Assembly: GCA_016215705.1 (NCBI GenBank)
Contig: JACRIR010000126.1
Coordinates: 1-34,992 of the forward strand
Length of the DNA: 34,992 bases
Direction of reading: 5' to 3'
DNA from: Candidatus Poribacteria bacterium
Lineage (GTDB): Bacteria > Abyssobacteria > SURF-5
The position numbers and the translations under genes are program-made. Positions 4,199 to 34,768 of the stretch are shown in pieces (positions within the stretch are counted from its first letter, which is position 1; each line of letters starts with the position of its first letter). The notes below the pieces were generated by a model. That model was not told the DNA's origin. It saw nothing but the letters and a program-made list of their open reading frames with translations, and ran no database searches.

Positions 4199-4247
4199 GG
4201 CGGATATTCGGGGACACCATGCGGCATGGTGTCCCCGAGTATCCGCC
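4199..4247. repeat. GGGGACA hairpin repeat, copy 1
   Basis: Two 23-base arms with one G/T-type mismatch flank the 3-base loop CGG. The core is TTCGGGGACACCATG. Four more copies lie at 11467-11507, 13731-13775, 20007-20052 and 30028-30068. Just upstream the 14-mer CAGAGAAACCGGCG occurs twice in direct repeat. The hairpin precedes the DUF456 gene and follows the divergent TetR operon, so it is not an obvious terminator for either. Confidence 0.85.
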
Positions 4248-9085: not shown

Positions 9086-11095
9086 CTATTGCATTCGGGC
9101 GGGCACTATTACCATTGTCTGCTCCCACAGTTGCAGCCGCTTCTGAAGAGCGAAGGCGGTCTGATTGTGGAGGATAGGCTGATACCAGCGCTCACGCTGA
9201 AAGACGAGTTGTCCCGTGAAGAACATAATGTGCGGGAACTCTTTCGCAACGTCCATGCAGAGACGTTCGAGCTCATCGACCACGTCTGTTCCAATGGCCA
9301 TTCGATAAGCGCCCGGGATTCCTTGTCCTTCGACGAGCTCGACGTACTTCTTGAGTCCTCCCTCGGTCTGACTCTTGAGCTGGTCGAGCGTATCCTCGCC
9401 TTTGAAGGCGCCGGAATCGATCACGCCGACGGAGAGGAACACCAGGTTCTTGAATTGGCCCGGAAACATGCGGAATATTGCCAGAGTGGTATGAATGCCG
9501 AGCCCGCTGTAGCCGCCGACGAGTACGGCGGCCGTGGGCTTGGTCGGATCGACCGATCCCGGCGAGACCTTCGACACTCGCGGTATATCGATAAGGCTCG
9601 CGTAGAGCGAACTCAGCTTTGCATTGGCGGCGCTGTAGTGACGCCGAATCCAAAAGCAAAGCATTATGACGACTCCCGTGACAGCGAGCGTGACCCAGCC
9701 GCCCTCGAGGAACTTCTCGTAAACGGTTATGAGGAGGATCGTGAAGCACATACTGAGCCCCAGCACGTGGATCGAGATTTTCTTTATCCAGTCAGGCCGG
9801 TGTTTGCGTTCGCCGAAATAGAGGCGGCACATTGACATCTCGGTCATGGAGAAAGTGAGGAAGACGTTTATGCTATACATGACGACAATGTGACGCACGT
9901 CTCCTTTCGTGTAGAGGAGTGCGCCGAGCGACGCCATGCCCATGAGAATGACGCCATTCTGGACCGTGAGGCGATCAGACAGCGTTGCGAATCGGCGGGG
10001 CACCCACGAGTCGATCGCCATATTCGCGAGCACGCGCGGGCCGTCCACGAAGCCCGCCTGTGCGGCCACGACGAGAAGGGCGCCCTCTGAGACCAGCGTG
10101 ACAATCACAAAGGGCCACCCAAGCGGAACGACCGTCACAAACCGCTCGACGAGAACGGCGTTCAGCGTCTTTCCCTCAACCGCGGTCACGTTCCAGAGGA
10201 GATAGCAGAAGAGAAGCCCCGACGCCGTGAACGCGAGCGAACTCGCCATGTAGATCATCGTGCGCTTGCCGGTCTCGACACGCGGCTCCCGCATTATCGT
10301 CAGGCCGTTCGAGACCGCTTCGATTCCGGTGTAGGTGCCGCCTCCGAGTGAATAGGCGTGCAGGAACAGGACGAATAATCCGCCCAGGCCGACGGTTGTC
10401 ACGCCGCCGGAGAATCCGTGCGCCGCCGCGCCGAGCGTCGCGGGCAGCGCCGGCGCCTTCACCAGAAGTCCGGCGGTGATTAAGACGGCGTGAGTGATTA
10501 CAAAGAGCACAAATACGGGGGTAAGAACGAGGATGGACTCCTTTACGCCACGAATATTGAGCGTACTCAGGAAAACAATGAAGAAGACCTCTGCGGGCAG
10601 TTTCCAGACGTGCCACGATAGTGGAAGGAAACTGAACAGCGCGTCCCCCGATGCTGCAATAGATATAGTGATTGTAAGGATGTAGTCCACAAGGAGCGCG
10701 CTGCCGGAGACCATGCCGGCGCGTTGTCCCAGCAGCTTTGTGGCAACGACGTAACCGCCGCCGCCGTGCGGGAAGTGTTCGATGACGCGGCTGTATGCGA
10801 CGGCGATGACGAAAACTGTCGTGGCCATGACTGCCGCGAGGCCGATTGCCAGATAGGTGTGCTGACCGAGGGTGCGAAACGCTTCTTCCGGGCCGTACGC
10901 TGACGACGAGAGGCCGTCCGCTCCCAGGCCGACCCACGCGAGGAAAGATATCAGTGAAAGGTGATGAAAAATACGCCTGTCGGATAGGTCACGCGGTGGG
11001 CCGAACAGAAGGTGTCTCAGGCGCTCGGCGAAAGGCGGTTTCTCTTGCTCGTTGGATTTACGACTACTGCCATCTATGTCCGGCGTGTTGCCCAT
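9086..11095 (-). CDS. kimA: KimA/YdaO-type APC superfamily potassium transporter
   Basis: This 669-residue permease has about twelve membrane segments and a cytoplasmic C-terminal domain of about 170 residues. The first segment carries GLGADGLSSSAYGPEEA (near residues 56-72), the signature of the KimA branch of the APC superfamily. A later FPHGGGGYVVATKLLG is the second conserved loop. In Bacillus, KimA is a proton-coupled K+ importer inhibited by c-di-AMP. The gene has a consensus promoter, a c-di-AMP riboswitch in its leader and a GGAGG ribosome site 7 bases before the ATG. The riboswitch makes K+ uptake the best reading. The alternative is a general amino-acid permease, which I think less likely. 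Confidence 0.88.
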   Translation of the reverse strand: MGNTPDIDGSSRKSNEQEKPPFAERLRHLLFGPPRDLSDRRIFHHLSLISFLAWVGLGADGLSSSAYGPEEAFRTLGQHTYLAIGLAAVMATTVFVIAVAYSRVIEHFPHGGGGYVVATKLLGQRAGMVSGSALLVDYILTITISIAASGDALFSFLPLSWHVWKLPAEVFFIVFLSTLNIRGVKESILVLTPVFVLFVITHAVLITAGLLVKAPALPATLGAAAHGFSGGVTTVGLGGLFVLFLHAYSLGGGTYTGIEAVSNGLTIMREPRVETGKRTMIYMASSLAFTASGLLFCYLLWNVTAVEGKTLNAVLVERFVTVVPLGWPFVIVTLVSEGALLVVAAQAGFVDGPRVLANMAIDSWVPRRFATLSDRLTVQNGVILMGMASLGALLYTKGDVRHIVVMYSINVFLTFSMTEMSMCRLYFGERKHRPDWIKKISIHVLGLSMCFTILLITVYEKFLEGGWVTLAVTGVVIMLCFWIRRHYSAANAKLSSLYASLIDIPRVSKVSPGSVDPTKPTAAVLVGGYSGLGIHTTLAIFRMFPGQFKNLVFLSVGVIDSGAFKGEDTLDQLKSQTEGGLKKYVELVEGQGIPGAYRMAIGTDVVDELERLCMDVAKEFPHIMFFTGQLVFQRERWYQPILHNQTAFALQKRLQLWEQTMVIVPARMQ

Positions 11096-11097
11096 GC

Positions 11098-11157
11098 AGA
11101 ACCTCCCACATTGAACCCGGTCGGAGAGTCGGCCTCCGGTCGTGTCCGGAAGGTTCT
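11098..11157 (-). promoter_or_regulatory. Ribosome-site-sequestering helix after the riboswitch
   Basis: In the leader RNA AGAACCUUCC (11157-11148), the 3' edge of the aptamer, can pair with GGGAGGUUCU (11107-11098), the ribosome binding site. That gives ten pairs, one of them U-G. It would hide the Shine-Dalgarno sequence, so control could be translational. No U-tract terminator is visible. Confidence 0.55.
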
Positions 11158-11284
11158 CTCCTTCGACGCCTGCGAGGTTAGCTGACGGGCTCGGGCCGAA
11201 GAAGTTACCCTACGCCTTGCGGCGATACGCCCCCGAAACTTGGGTCCCCCGTCCCCGCCCGGAAGGCGGGATTCGGCGTGAAAC
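11153..11284 (-). promoter_or_regulatory. c-di-AMP riboswitch (ydaO-yuaA family)
   Basis: The leader of the KimA-like gene carries the conserved ydaO blocks in order on the minus strand: CGCCGAATCC near 11278-11269, GGGGGACCCAAG near 11251-11240, a GGGGGCGTATCGCC hairpin region, AGGGTAAC, then GCCCGTCAGCTAACCTCGCA (11191-11172), GGCGTC and GGAGAG. CCCGTCAGCTAACCTCGNAGGCG is the hallmark 3' core of the family. Known members sense c-di-AMP and usually turn off K+ or osmolyte transporters and wall-remodelling genes. Transcription is predicted to start almost exactly at its 5' edge. Confidence 0.9.
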
Positions 11285-11292
11285 AATGTCTT

Positions 11293-11321: not shown

Positions 11322-11342
11322 ACATATCCGCAATTTTTGTAG

Positions 11343-11463: not shown

Positions 11464-11466
11464 TCA

Positions 11467-11507
11467 GAAAACCGGGGACACGATGCGACATCGTGTCCCC
11501 GGTTTTC
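11467..11507. repeat. GGGGACA hairpin repeat, copy 2
   Basis: Two perfect 19-base arms, whose core is CCGGGGACACGATG, enclose the 3-base loop CGA. The core and the 3-base loop match the other copies, while the outer arm bases differ and are compensated on both sides. Confidence 0.85.
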
Positions 11508-11524
11508 TTCATTCATGTCTGTCT

Positions 11525-13730: not shown

Positions 13731-13775
13731 CCTTAATTCGGGGACACGATGCCGCATCGTGTCCCCGAATTAAGG
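13731..13775. repeat. GGGGACA hairpin repeat, copy 3
   Basis: Two perfect 21-base arms, with core AATTCGGGGACACGATG, enclose the 3-base loop CCG. It lies upstream of the CocE-type gene and downstream of the aminotransferase gene. The rest of 13661-13944 holds short repeat fragments (for example GAGATTCTTCGCTCCGC) and a pyrimidine tract. Confidence 0.85.
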
Positions 13776-17950: not shown

Positions 17951-18033
17951 GCGGTTTCCACATCTCTTCGTTTCTTGCTGACCATCGGCCTTCGACCTTC
18001 AACGGCGTTTTGCCCAAAGGGTAGTAGCCGTTT

Positions 18034-18201
18034 GTCATTCTGAGCGAGGCGTTTGTCATTCTGAGCGAGCCAGTTGTCATTCTGGGCGAGCCGTTTGTCA
18101 TTCTGAGCGAGCCGGTTGTCATTCTGAGCGAGCCGGTTGTCATTCTGAGCGAGCCGGTTGTCATTCTGAGCGAGCCGGTTGTCATTCTGAGCGAAGCGAA
18201 G
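18034..18201. repeat. Tandem array of eight 21-bp units
   Basis: Units of consensus GTCATTCTGAGCGAGCCGGT(T) begin at 18034, 18055, 18076, 18097, 18118, 18139, 18160 and 18181, an exact 21-base period. The first four vary slightly and the next three are identical. The last passes into the common dispersed GTCATTCTGAGCGAAGCGAAGAATCT sequence. Because 21 is a multiple of 3, a minus-strand frame through the array encodes a heptapeptide repeat (MTTGSLR). Confidence 0.95.
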
Positions 18202-18272
18202 AATCTCTGTCGATAGGTCGCAAATCTGCAGGAAAACGAGAGATTCTTCGTCGCTTTGCTCCTCAGAATGAC
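18181..18272. repeat. Long imperfect inverted repeat
   Basis: GTCATTCTGAGCGAAGCG with AAGAATCTCT (18181-18208) is inverted at 18239-18272 as AGAGATTCTTCG...CTCAGAATGAC, around a 30-base centre. It looks like a small MITE-like element from which the 21-base array may have expanded. Confidence 0.75.
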
Positions 18273-19251: not shown

Positions 19252-20463
19252 ATGATGAACTTATCTATCGAAGAGTATGCCGAATGGCAAAGCCGAAGGC
19301 GTTTGCGCCGCCGAACATATCCGATTGTGCCCGCAAGCATCAAGGAGAAGCTGGGGAAAATCGAGAACGCAGGCGCGGTCCTGTGGGATGTTTACGGAAC
19401 GTTGATGGCGGTCTCGGTCGGCGATCTCGAAAACGGACGCAGGAAGAAGGAGTTGATGCTCGAAGCTCTTCGACGCACGGCCCGAGAGTTCGGACTTATG
19501 GAATTCCTCGGAAGCACGCCGGAAGACACGCTCATGGAAATGTACCTGCGCGAAATCGAGAAAACACATCACCGCAAGCGAAGCCATGGCTCTTTCTCAC
19601 CGGAAGTAAGAATCGAAGACATATGGCTTCGAATATTGAAGAAACTCGAATCGGCGGGCTACAAGCCGCCGAGCGGCAAAACAGAGCATAGAACGGAGAG
19701 TGGAGGTCGAGAGGTCAACCTCGACCTCGCTTTGAAGATAGCTTACTTCTTTGACGATGTTTACCACACAAAGCGCCTTTACCCGGACGCGCGTGAGACC
19801 CTCGAGGGCGTCAAGAGACTCGGGCTTCTTCAGGGTATTATTTCAAACGCTCAGTTCTACACTCCCATCGCGCTGAACATCCTCCTTTGTGGAGGGGAAA
19901 AGTCGGCGAGCAGCCGATGGGAAAGCGGTGATATCGAGTCCGAAAGTTATTCATTAGGAAAACAAGCCGGGAATGATAAGAAGGGCATGTCCGCGGCGCG
20001 GCGGCCTATTCGGAGACACGATGTCCCGCTCAGAGCGGGATGTCCCCGAATAAGCTCCGGTTGCTTAACGGACCTCTTCGATGGCCGACTCCTGTTCTTT
20101 TCGTACTGCCTCGGCGTGTCAAAACCGAACCCGCATGCGTTCGAACTGGCGCAGCAACGTCTCAAGAAAACTGGAATTCCGCCGGAACACGTTTTGTATG
20201 TTGGAAACGACCTTCACAGCGACATGACACCGGCGCGTGCGGTCGGGTTCAAATGCGTGCTTCACGCAGGCGATAAGGAAAGCCTCATACTTCGGAAAGA
20301 CCATTCTGACTGCAGAGACCTCGAGCCGGATGCGATCATAAAGTCGCTGCCACAATTGTTGTCGATAATCGGGGGAAAGCACAGCGCGGCAAAACTGCAA
20401 CCAAAGAAGAAGTTTGGATCACGAATTGCACGAATGCACCCTCCTGAAGAAGGGTGGGAATGA
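19252..20463 (+). CDS. HAD superfamily protein with in-frame repeat insertion
   Basis: A 403-residue HAD-fold protein. Motif I is LWDVYGTLM, with nucleophile Asp46 but Tyr in place of the usual second Asp. Motif II is IISNAQFYT, the motif III Lys is in LGVSKPNPHAFELA, and motif IV is VLYVGNDLHSDMTPARAVGF. Between IALNILL and LTDLFDGRLLFFSY, normally adjacent parts of the core, there are about 55 extra residues encoded partly by a GGGGACA hairpin repeat (20007-20052). The last 30 or so residues also come from repeat-like DNA. The frame stays open throughout. The ATG at 19252 (or 19255) is chosen because conserved sequence begins there and GGGG precedes it; the open frame upstream is low-complexity. 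It may be functional or recently damaged. Confidence 0.8.
   Translation: MMNLSIEEYAEWQSRRRLRRRTYPIVPASIKEKLGKIENAGAVLWDVYGTLMAVSVGDLENGRRKKELMLEALRRTAREFGLMEFLGSTPEDTLMEMYLREIEKTHHRKRSHGSFSPEVRIEDIWLRILKKLESAGYKPPSGKTEHRTESGGREVNLDLALKIAYFFDDVYHTKRLYPDARETLEGVKRLGLLQGIISNAQFYTPIALNILLCGGEKSASSRWESGDIESESYSLGKQAGNDKKGMSAARRPIRRHDVPLRAGCPRISSGCLTDLFDGRLLFFSYCLGVSKPNPHAFELAQQRLKKTGIPPEHVLYVGNDLHSDMTPARAVGFKCVLHAGDKESLILRKDHSDCRDLEPDAIIKSLPQLLSIIGGKHSAAKLQPKKKFGSRIARMHPPEEGWE
20007..20052. repeat. GGGGACA hairpin repeat, copy 4, inside a coding sequence
   Basis: TATTCGGAGACA (20007-20018) and TGTCCCCGAATA (20041-20052) pair with one mismatch. Inside lies a second palindrome TCCCGCTCAGAGCGGGA, unlike the 3-base loops of the other copies. 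It is read in frame by the HAD gene, where it encodes an Arg/Pro/Cys-rich segment. Confidence 0.8.
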
Positions 20464-20486: not shown

Positions 20487-21572
20487 CTATCCGCTGCTGG
20501 TTGAAACGCCCGTGAGTTCGCGGACCCGGGCCGAATCGCCGAGAACGATCAGCGTCATGCCGTCTGTGAGCGTCGTATCGGCGGACGGATTGTAGATGAA
20601 GCTTTGCGAGCCGGATTCTCTAAGCGCAACGATCAGTAGATTAGAGTCGTCCCGTATTCTTGTCGACTTGATCGTCTGATTGATGAATCTCGATTCAGGC
20701 GTGATGCGCACTTCCTCGAAGCGAATTGCGCCAGTGGTATCGCGGAGCATCGTATCGAGAAACGAGACCACCGACGGCCTTATGAGCTCTGACGCCATGC
20801 GAAGACCGCCGATGTGCGCGGGGGAAACGATGGCGTCGGCGCCTGCCTTTCGAAGTTTGCGGTCAACGCTCTGGTCGAGTCCCCGCGTGACAATGCGGAG
20901 CGAGGGATTGAGTTGGCGGGCGGTAAGCGTGAGGTACAGGTTGTCCTTTTCCGATGAGAGCGTAGCCGCAAGGCCGGCCGCGTGGTCGATGCCCGCGTTT
21001 ATGAGCACGTGATCGTCGGTTGCGTCGCCGAGGATGTAGAAGACGTCGCCGAGCTGGCGCGCGGCCTCGATGCGATCGGGATCGCGGTCGATTACCACAA
21101 AATCCGTCCCCGTTTTCATCAATTCGCTCACGATGCAAGCGCCCGTTGCGCCTGCTCCGCACACTATGAAATGTCTGCGCAGTAATTTGATGTCCTTAAT
21201 CATTTTTCTCCTCTTGAAAACTTCCCGCAGGTCGGTCTCCACCATGATGGACGTCACAGTGCTAACGCTGTAAAGCAGGATGCCCATGCCGAAGAGTATG
21301 AGTGCGATGGTGAATATGCGCACCGCCGGAAACTGCGAGGTGTCGATCACCTCTCCATAGCCCACGGTCGCAAGCGTGATTACCGTCATGTAGAGGCACG
21401 TCAGCCAGTCGTAGCGATTTTCGGTGAGAGCCTTGTACATTACAGTGCCGATGAGAACAGTCGCCGCCATCAACACAAGCGCAATGGCCAGTCTTTTTTC
21501 AGGTCGATCAGGCACGATGACAATTCCCAATGAACATGGCCCGGTGAGCTTTTGGGGAATCTCCCACGACAC
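20487..21572 (-). CDS. Two-TM potassium channel with RCK (TrkA-N/TrkA-C) domains
   Basis: A 361-residue MthK-like channel. TM1 is at about 27-48, the pore helix and filter TLATVGYGE at 67-74, and TM2 (RIFTIALILFGMGILLYSVS) at 85-104. A Rossmann RCK domain begins HFIVCGAGATGACIVSELM at about 134, and the C-terminal RCK_C (TrkA_C) domain ends with LTDGMTLIVLGDSARVREL. The intact filter indicates K+ selectivity. The start is uncertain: the GTG at 21572 is the longest option, and another GTG at residue 20 has GGGAA 8 bases upstream. It converges on the HAD gene with a 23-base gap. RCK_C domains bind c-di-AMP in some bacteria, which would link it with the kimA riboswitch; that is inference. Confidence 0.93.
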   Translation of the reverse strand: MSWEIPQKLTGPCSLGIVIVPDRPEKRLAIALVLMAATVLIGTVMYKALTENRYDWLTCLYMTVITLATVGYGEVIDTSQFPAVRIFTIALILFGMGILLYSVSTVTSIMVETDLREVFKRRKMIKDIKLLRRHFIVCGAGATGACIVSELMKTGTDFVVIDRDPDRIEAARQLGDVFYILGDATDDHVLINAGIDHAAGLAATLSSEKDNLYLTLTARQLNPSLRIVTRGLDQSVDRKLRKAGADAIVSPAHIGGLRMASELIRPSVVSFLDTMLRDTTGAIRFEEVRITPESRFINQTIKSTRIRDDSNLLIVALRESGSQSFIYNPSADTTLTDGMTLIVLGDSARVRELTGVSTSSG

Positions 21573-24918: not shown

Positions 24919-26847
24919 ATGAAAAAAAGCTTGCAGAAAACACTTGGCGGTGAGCTAACGCTAGGACATTGGGCAAAATCACTCGCGGTCATTTCAAACA
25001 ATAGAGGGAAGGCAAGCGCTTCAATTGCCGGGCTGGTCGTGTTCCTCTTCGGGATAGGGCTAGCTTTGTTCGTGATTGCCAACCCGATGAAGGTTGGGCT
25101 GTTCGAGAAGATAAGCAATGCGATCATGCGGAAAGGAACAGGGGACACCGCCGGAGGCAGAAAAGTGAAGTTCTGGCGCAACCCCATGGACCCCGCTGTC
25201 ACCTCGCCCGTGTTTACGAAAGACTCGATGGGCATGGACTATTTGCCTGTGTATGAAGACGAATTAACAGGCGGCGCCGCCGCCGAGTCCGGCATAAAGA
25301 TCGATCCCGCGACCGTCCAGAACATCGGCGTGATCACCGCGCCTGTCAACCGTGGCGACTTAAGGCTGGAGATTCGCACTGTCGGCAACCTTGATTATAA
25401 CCAGAAAAGCATTTACCTCGTTAACACCAAGTACGAGGGCTGGATAGAAAAAGTGCATGTGAACTATGTCGGTCAGGAAGTCCGCAAGGGACAGCCATTA
25501 TTTGATATTTACAGCCCGGAACTGGTCAGCGCGCAGGAAGAGTACCTGATTGCGCTCAAGTATCGTGACGAAATGAAGGCAAGAGAGGTCCCGGGGTCCG
25601 ATGCGGACGCGGATTATCTGCTTCAGGCGAGCCGAAGCCGGCTCCGTTATTGGGACATCTCTGATGAGCAGATAAAGCGACTGGAAGACGAAGGGGAGTT
25701 GCGGAAAACCCTCACCGTCGTATCCCCGGCAACCGGCGTTGTCATCGAAAAACAAGACCGCGCGCTCGACGGAATGAAGGCGGAGGCCGGCCTGAATCTT
25801 TACAAAATCGCGGACCTTTCAACCCTCTGGGTCTATGTGGACTTGTACGAGTATCAACTGCCCTGGATCAAGGTGGGCCAGAATGCCAAAGTCGAGATCA
25901 GCTATTACCCGGGAGAGGTGTTTCACGGCAAAATCCTCTTTTTCAACCCATTCCTCGACGAAACTACAAGGACAGTCAGGGTAAACCTCCAGATTCCCAA
26001 CCCCGACGGAAGATTGCGCCCGCAAATGTTCGCCACCGTGACACTACTGCCGGTCGCCGCGAAGAATGTAGTGACCGTGCCCGAAATGGCTGTTCTTCAC
26101 ACCGGCGAGAGAAATGTGGTCGTGCTTGACAACGGCGGCGGCCGCTTTGAACCGCGTGACGTGAAACTGGGCCTGCAAGGGGAGGGCGTATACCAGGTGC
26201 TCGATGGGCTTGAAGGCGGTGAGACCGTAGTTACCTCCGCCCAATTCCTCATCGATTCCGAGAGCAACTTGCAAGAGGTCATCAACAAGATGCTCATGGC
26301 CACTGAGGGCGAAGCTTCGGCTGCGCCCGCGTCTGCGACGCTCGCGCCTGCGGCGCCGGGCGCACAAAAACCCGCGGCCAAGGATGCTGAACATGCCGGA
26401 CACGAGAGGAAGTCCCTCATCGATGATCAGAAAATGGTCGATACCCTTGGCAAAACGATCGAGGCTTATCTGCCGATATGGAAAGCGCTGGCAAATGATT
26501 CGACTTCCGGAATCAAAGAGAACGCCGCAACGCTTGCAGACCTTGCCGGCAAAGCCGTGGGCCAGGCGAAAGAGGACGCGCTCAAGTCTCAACTCAAGGC
26601 TCTCAAAAAAGCGGCTTCTGAAATGAAGACCGGCGACCTGAACTCGGCGCGCGAGTCAATGAAGGGCGTGAGCCGCGTGCTCATTTCTGTCTTTACCTCG
26701 CATGAGGTGAAGTTGCCGAAACGCTACTTAATCATCGAATGCACGATGGTCCATGAGAAATGGATTCAAGACACCGAAGAGATAAGAAATCCCTTCCTTG
26801 GCTCGCAGATGCCCACGTGCGGAACCAAGGTTGGAGAAATAGGATAA
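24919..26847 (+). CDS. cusB: CusB-like RND periplasmic adaptor with metal-binding ends
   Basis: A 642-residue adaptor. A membrane anchor (ASIAGLVVFLFGIGLALFVIA) lies at about 34-54. A heavy-metal-binding motif follows, KFWRNPMDPAVTSPVFTKDS then MGMDYLPVYEDE, a Met version without the Cys pair. Lipoyl, hairpin and beta-barrel domains come next (WIEKVHVNYVGQEVRKGQPL; LWVYVDLYEYQLPWIKVGQ). An Ala/Pro-rich linker at about 455-490 leads to a C-terminal DUF3347-like helical domain ending ECTMVHEKWIQDTEEIRNPF with a final MPTCG. This would bind Cu(I)/Ag(I) in the periplasm and hand it to the pump. GAGAGG lies 6 bases before the ATG, and the pump gene starts 6 bases after the stop. Confidence 0.93.
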   Translation: MKKSLQKTLGGELTLGHWAKSLAVISNNRGKASASIAGLVVFLFGIGLALFVIANPMKVGLFEKISNAIMRKGTGDTAGGRKVKFWRNPMDPAVTSPVFTKDSMGMDYLPVYEDELTGGAAAESGIKIDPATVQNIGVITAPVNRGDLRLEIRTVGNLDYNQKSIYLVNTKYEGWIEKVHVNYVGQEVRKGQPLFDIYSPELVSAQEEYLIALKYRDEMKAREVPGSDADADYLLQASRSRLRYWDISDEQIKRLEDEGELRKTLTVVSPATGVVIEKQDRALDGMKAEAGLNLYKIADLSTLWVYVDLYEYQLPWIKVGQNAKVEISYYPGEVFHGKILFFNPFLDETTRTVRVNLQIPNPDGRLRPQMFATVTLLPVAAKNVVTVPEMAVLHTGERNVVVLDNGGGRFEPRDVKLGLQGEGVYQVLDGLEGGETVVTSAQFLIDSESNLQEVINKMLMATEGEASAAPASATLAPAAPGAQKPAAKDAEHAGHERKSLIDDQKMVDTLGKTIEAYLPIWKALANDSTSGIKENAATLADLAGKAVGQAKEDALKSQLKALKKAASEMKTGDLNSARESMKGVSRVLISVFTSHEVKLPKRYLIIECTMVHEKWIQDTEEIRNPFLGSQMPTCGTKVGEIG

Positions 26848-30027: not shown

Positions 30028-30068
30028 CTAATTCGGGGACAAATTGCCGCAAGGTGTCCCCGAATTAG
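30028..30068. repeat. GGGGACA hairpin repeat, copy 5
   Basis: CTAATTCGGGGACA and TGTCCCCGAATTAG are perfect 14-base arms. Inside, TTG pairs with CAA around the loop CCG, so the loop again is 3 bases. The hairpin lies 40 bases after cusA and might end its transcript, but lacks a U-tract. Confidence 0.85.
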
Positions 30069-34634: not shown

Positions 34635-34768
34635 CTAGTATGACGTTTCCGAAATAACATAGCATAAGCATTTTGAGCATGAGCCTAACAATAACCGTCA
34701 TTCTGAGCGAAGCGAAGAATCTCGTTCTTTATGGCTATTGCAACGTTACTTAGGAAGCGCTCTACTAG
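34635..34768. mobile_element. MITE-like element A with CTAGTA ends
   Basis: CTAGTATGACGTTTCC...TAAC (34635-34658) and GTTACTTAGGAAGCGC...CTAG (34745-34768) are 24-base terminal inverted repeats matching at 18 positions. No coding capacity. The interior carries the common repeat GTCATTCTGAGCGAAGCGAA at 34697-34723. The last four bases, CTAG, are shared with element B. Confidence 0.6.

Follow-up and report, generated by a model that had tools for sequence, protein, structure and literature searches.

A dispersed palindromic repeat read in frame within a HAD-family hydrolase gene of an uncultivated bacterium

A HAD-superfamily hydrolase gene in the window, the whole 34,992-nucleotide stretch of DNA analyzed here, encodes 49 residues more than its orthologues, and the segment with these residues contains one copy of a dispersed palindromic repeat. 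Our full explanation, which we consider probable, is that a miniature palindrome of the TIRYT/RAYT type landed in a linker of the hydrolase, the frame was kept, and the gene survived. The palindrome would be one copy of a non-autonomous miniature element, belonging to the type that Y1/HUH tyrosine transposases in the TIRYT/RAYT group disperse, and would have inserted in the linker past the motif-II helix. About 100 nt of other noncoding DNA would have come together with it, and, with the frame kept and no stop introduced, the gene would survive with a 49-residue hydrophilic loop. In-frame palindromic insertions are already established for Rickettsia palindromic elements (RPEs; PMC10969869) and for GTAG/CGTC REPs (PMC3733652). 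The present case is an event of this known kind, in another element family (GGGGWSAS, TIRYT-linked) and another phylum.

Table 1. Location of the host gene, the insert, and the copies of the palindrome family in the window
Feature	Positions	Strand	Basis
HAD-superfamily hydrolase gene, 403 aa	19252..20463	+	ORF list, Pfam, orthologues (65/53/46% identity)
Segment with extra residues, residues 213-271	19888..20064	+	Protein alignment, flat codon-position GC
5' part of insert, no second copy in genome, non-coding-type composition	19888..20004	+	Genome search, composition
Palindrome with outer stem TATTCGGrGACA/TGTCCCCGAATA and inner hairpin TCCCGCTcagAGCGGGA nested in it	20007..20052	.	Pattern and context reading
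Intergenic palindrome-family copy	4208..4238	.	Repeat search, context reading
Intergenic palindrome-family copy	11466..11508	.	Repeat search, context reading
Intergenic palindrome-family copy	13731..13775	.	Repeat search, context reading
Intergenic palindrome-family copy	30028..30068	.	Repeat search, context reading

The insert and its host gene

The Pfam Hydrolase and Hydrolase_like models both score above cut-off in the encoded protein. A search of 60 related genomes returned orthologues in G002 (65% identity) and G001 (53%), which belong to the same family, and in the more distant G003 (46-47%); their starts correspond to the second ATG, at 19255. Viral contigs scanned for extra HAD homologues yielded none. 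The HAD motifs DVYGT, SN, KPNP, and VGND...D are invariant between the window protein and the orthologues. Two further stretches of the window protein have no counterpart in the orthologues, 9 extra residues near residue 147 and an extension of 27 residues at the C terminus.

The main difference lies between the invariant LL and LFD, which are separated by 62 residues in the window protein versus exactly 13 in all three orthologues, a net excess of 49 residues, or 147 nt. The earlier note, made from the sequence alone, had described extra residues at this point; the alignment bears this out, with the note's figure of about 55 proving slightly high. The hairpin, as that note had described it, occupies 20007-20052 and is read in frame without stops, and the reading frame of the gene stays open across the whole insert. 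The comparison with orthologues that the note had proposed finds the segment missing from all three, which indicates that it is not ancestral protein sequence.

The palindrome has the sequence TATTCGGAGACACGATGTCCCGCTCAGAGCGGGATGTCCCCGAATA and is translated as IRRHDVPLRAGCPRIS in the HAD frame. Its 5' arm, GGAGACAC, departs from the GGGGWSAS-type majority arm by one mismatch (GGAGACA for GGGGACA), and its 3' arm reads TGTCCCC. The DNA folding z-score is -2.7. This copy is of a rarer variant, present at about ten loci in the genome, in which a second GC-rich hairpin (TCCCGC...GCGGGA) is nested inside the first.

The palindrome sits in the 3' third of the segment and contributes only some 46 bases to the excess of 147. 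No second copy of the 5' part (about 117 nt) was found in the genome itself. GC content by codon position is 0.53/0.62/0.53 in the insert segment (computed on 19888-20067), whereas the gene outside it has 0.58/0.39/0.62. The 5' part taken separately gives 0.51/0.59/0.56; because the pattern of the remaining gene is missing, this part looks like recently noncoding DNA. The limited share of palindromic bases and the lack of repeat copies of the 5' part could also be accommodated if the protein had its long linker from an ancestor or as a feature of its lineage, with the palindrome being a later addition or a coincidence. However, the linker is exactly 13 residues long in all three orthologues, and the 5' part lacks the codon-position pattern, as expected of DNA that was recently noncoding. 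An ancestral linker is therefore highly improbable. A single clean transposition does not explain the whole insert either, because the roughly 100 nt outside the palindrome match nothing else in the genome.

Whether the gene tolerates a loop or is newly disabled was left as an either/or by the earlier note. The possibility that the insert disabled the gene, leaving a dead or dying pseudogene whose frame has yet to decay, draws on the three extra stretches (49 residues, 9 residues near 147, and the 27-residue extension), all missing in the orthologues. It also draws on a changed gene setting, in that a glycosyltransferase-like ORF comes after the orthologue in G001 and G002, whereas an opposite-strand ORF (20487-21572) lies 3' of the gene here. 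Against this stand the intact catalytic motifs and 403 codons without a stop or frameshift. Relative-rate tests outside the insert, comparing the window protein with that of G002, gave 31 versus 26 changes with G001 as the outgroup (chi2 0.44) and 17 versus 26 with G003 as the outgroup (chi2 1.88); neither is significant, and there is no sign of decay, although both tests integrate over a long past and a very recent loss would escape them. Differences prevail at third codon positions (0.57 versus 0.26 at first and 0.23 at second positions), and the other two intragenic copies described below likewise lie in intact long ORFs. We regard a pseudogene as unlikely. With the catalytic motifs intact and a normal evolutionary rate outside the insert, a tolerated loop appears more likely than a dead gene, and of the note's two options the former fits better.

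In the HAD fold, the insert comes after the helix that succeeds the motif-II strand, a position that fits a surface linker. A profile comparison with solved HAD proteins indicates that the length of this linker varies, 2hoq being 7 residues shorter there. An AlphaFold model of the protein had a mean pLDDT of 34 and was not used for loop position. We infer that the loop lies at the surface and that HAD function is retained.

The repeat family and its putative mobilization

The genome (5.47 Mb) has 257 exact palindromes of the form CGGGGACA-N(5-32)-TGTCCCCG, versus 0 matches to the reversed pattern used as a control over the same sequence; the palindrome in the HAD gene is thus not a chance match. 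The sister genera have just 3 and 1 copies, which marks the 257 here as a lineage-specific burst. Six more distant genomes contain no match to the pattern.

The family element measures about 43-56 bp, with the core CGGGGACAC...GTGTCCCCG. Among the 74 copies with the standard core, which formed the covariation set, the majority arm is GGGGACAC, which fits GGGGWSAS, and the palindrome reaches about 8 bp past the core on either side. Base pairs vary in concert in these copies: position -2 is T-A in 45, A-T in 28, and mismatched in one; position -5 is T-A in 40 and A-T in 32; position -6 is G-C in 26, C-G in 21, T-A in 15, and A-T in 6; and position 9 is G-C in 52 and C-G in 20. The arms remain complementary while their letters vary. 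This covariation points to a conserved structure, but it may in part stem from a small number of founder subfamilies and not from compensatory changes that arose independently many times. The copies are nearly all intergenic, with a few in-frame survivors within genes; further window copies are listed in Table 1. Three copies of a further dispersed repeat, likewise short and palindromic (GTAGGTGCGAAT..ATTCG), lie in the window at 11335, 29981, and 30226.

The genome contains three Y1_Tnp (IS200-like) genes. The Y1 protein of contig C225 scores above the cut-off of the NCBI model for REP-associated tyrosine transposases (REP_Tyr_transpos) and carries a DnaA-type C-terminal domain (Bac_DnaA_C), and that of contig C28 is above the Pfam Y1_Tnp cut-off and below the NCBI one. 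GGGGWSAS-type inverted repeats flank the Y1 genes on both contigs. On C225 these are GGGGTCAG, listed also as GGGGTCAGGTCTTG and GGGGTCAGGTCTTGAA; the C28 copies are flanked by TTATTCCGGGGACATAATACC and its complement, and the last base of the inverted repeats there, GGGGACAT, deviates from the GGGGWSAS consensus. A Y1 gene in the sister genus G001 is flanked by GGGGACAGAGACC repeats, also given as GGGGACAGAGACCATATT. The exact form GGGGACACGATG flanks no assembled Y1 gene, the nearest being C28 with GGGGACATAATACC. The C28 repeat TTATTCCGGGGACATAATACC and the family sequence GCTTATTCGGGGACACGATGC have TTATTC(C)GGGGACA in common and differ in the inner part. The draft genome is 92% complete and breaks at these Y1 genes, contigs C28 and C225 beginning inside or just before them.

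Di Nocera et al. 2013 (PMC3733652) named transposases of this kind TIRYTs; GGGGWSAS is common to their terminal inverted repeats, which can give rise to families of repeats. PMC6006769 makes the same statement about GGGGWSAS for subclass 2.1, in which DNA-binding domains of the sort seen in the C225 protein occur. Because its core fits GGGGWSAS and similar inverted repeats accompany Y1 genes in this genome, we read the element as a putatively mobilized, transposase-dependent miniature element of the REP/TIR type. Although no exact cognate gene was found in this draft, which breaks at these genes, the Y1 transposases of the genome may mobilize the family.

Intragenic copies elsewhere in the genome

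Reading 62 copies in their context showed open frames of more than 130 codons to either side of only two, the HAD copy and a copy on contig C182. A two-frame translated search gave one further convincing intragenic copy, on C193. In addition to the HAD copy, two copies are thus read in frame within real genes, both in long intact ORFs. The C182 copy (around 25575-25618) is of the same palindrome variant as that in the HAD gene and has the same frame and orientation. Its product, a membrane/TPR (TMTC/TPR-like) protein, has 34 additional residues in all at the element relative to both orthologues, and the insert also holds a second dispersed repeat beside the palindrome (GAGATTCTTCGCTCCGCTCGC). 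This second repeat (GAGATTCTTCGC...) resembles the repeat at 18181 and 34697 of the window. At 18026-18214 of the window, about eight copies of a 21-bp tandem repeat, GTCATTCTGAGCGAGCCGGTT, run into the dispersed repeat GTCATTCTGAGCGAAGCGAAGAATCTC, which has an exact second occurrence at 34697.

The C193 gene (L118, 2032-4314) encodes a TMEM260-like protein in which the palindrome falls within a loop. The stretch that separates the flanking matches is much shorter in homologues from the sister genera; at 28% identity, the insert size is only approximate. This protein also bears a PPFLNGR-type repeated stretch (TPPFPNGESAPPFLNGRFTPPFLNGKPVPPFREGG). Like the HAD gene, the C182 and C193 sites carry extra sequence besides the palindrome; the elements may arrive with flanking DNA, or the loops may accumulate repeats one by one.

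Several candidates were rejected on inspection. On C222, a 512-aa frame runs opposite to an acyl-CoA-dehydrogenase-like ORF, and the palindrome lies just past that ORF. The copies on C30, C14, and C190, as well as the N-terminal candidates on C136, C13, and C49, were judged intergenic or spurious. The remaining long frames examined look spurious or belong to genes that start downstream of the palindrome.

These copies extend in-frame palindromic insertion to a transposase-linked GGGGWSAS family in a deep-subsurface lineage and suggest that linkers in proteins are able to accommodate DNA of this kind. A broader reading, which we offer tentatively and consider somewhat doubtful, is that a TIRYT-type family gives rise to new protein loops in an uncultivated phylum, with in-frame insertions fixed in several genes independently of RPEs and longer noncoding DNA recruited alongside. 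Transposase-linked hairpins might be a source of new protein segments more generally, and the three intragenic copies in this genome offer a test case.

Comparison with known palindromic elements

The earlier note had likened the palindrome to Rickettsia elements. The resemblance holds for the mode of insertion, a repeated palindrome read in frame in a real gene, and fails as kinship. If the element were an RPE or a direct relative of one, the layout would agree, since RPEs are palindromes read in frame within unrelated protein genes, probably as tolerated loops, and encode inserts of similar size (PMC10969869). In-frame insertions missing from orthologues, an RPE feature, are seen here as 49 additional residues in the HAD protein and 34 in the TPR protein. 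RPE-4 and RPE-6, however, end in CGTC (PMC3733652), and none of the copies read here carries CGTC at an element end. Elements here measure 43-56 bp versus about 150 bp for RPEs, the host is unrelated, and intragenic copies are rare, whereas nearly half of the RPEs of R. conorii lie in ORFs (PMC10969869). The core instead fits the GGGGWSAS of TIRYT repeats. Given the end tag and the distribution, we reject membership in the RPEs, and even direct kinship is extremely improbable. The element works like an RPE yet is not one.

REP-type elements differ in other respects. Intragenic GTAG/CGTC REPs, such as those of O. terrae and Thioalkalivibrio uvrA (PMC3733652), likewise are palindromes that add 20-80 residues to ORFs. 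The element here has neither a GTAG/GTGG nor a CGTC foot, the hairpin foot being ATTC/AATC followed by the GGGGACA core. REPINs, like this family, are non-autonomous palindromes tied to a Y1 transposase (RAYT), but consist of inverted pairs of GTAG-tagged REPs, in contrast to the single near-perfect palindrome here.

The TIRYT/TIRtron repeats (PMC3733652; subclass 2.1, PMC6006769) share with this family the GGGGWSAS core, a dispersed and mostly intergenic distribution, and Y1/HUH genes flanked by such repeats, one of those in this genome having the Bac_DnaA_C domain reported for subclass 2.1. They differ in copy number (257 exact copies here versus moderately abundant TIR families) and in form, the near-perfect palindromes here contrasting with solo TIRs, and the exact cognate transposase was not found in this genome. 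In-frame intragenic copies occur here, and the available parts of the two papers mention none for the TIRYT type.

In an Rfam search of the window, no family covers the palindrome. The sole match is a c-di-AMP riboswitch (ydaO/yuaA leader, RF00379, 93 bits) at 11151-11288 on the minus strand, just upstream of a 669-aa transporter-like ORF at 9086-11095 on the same strand.
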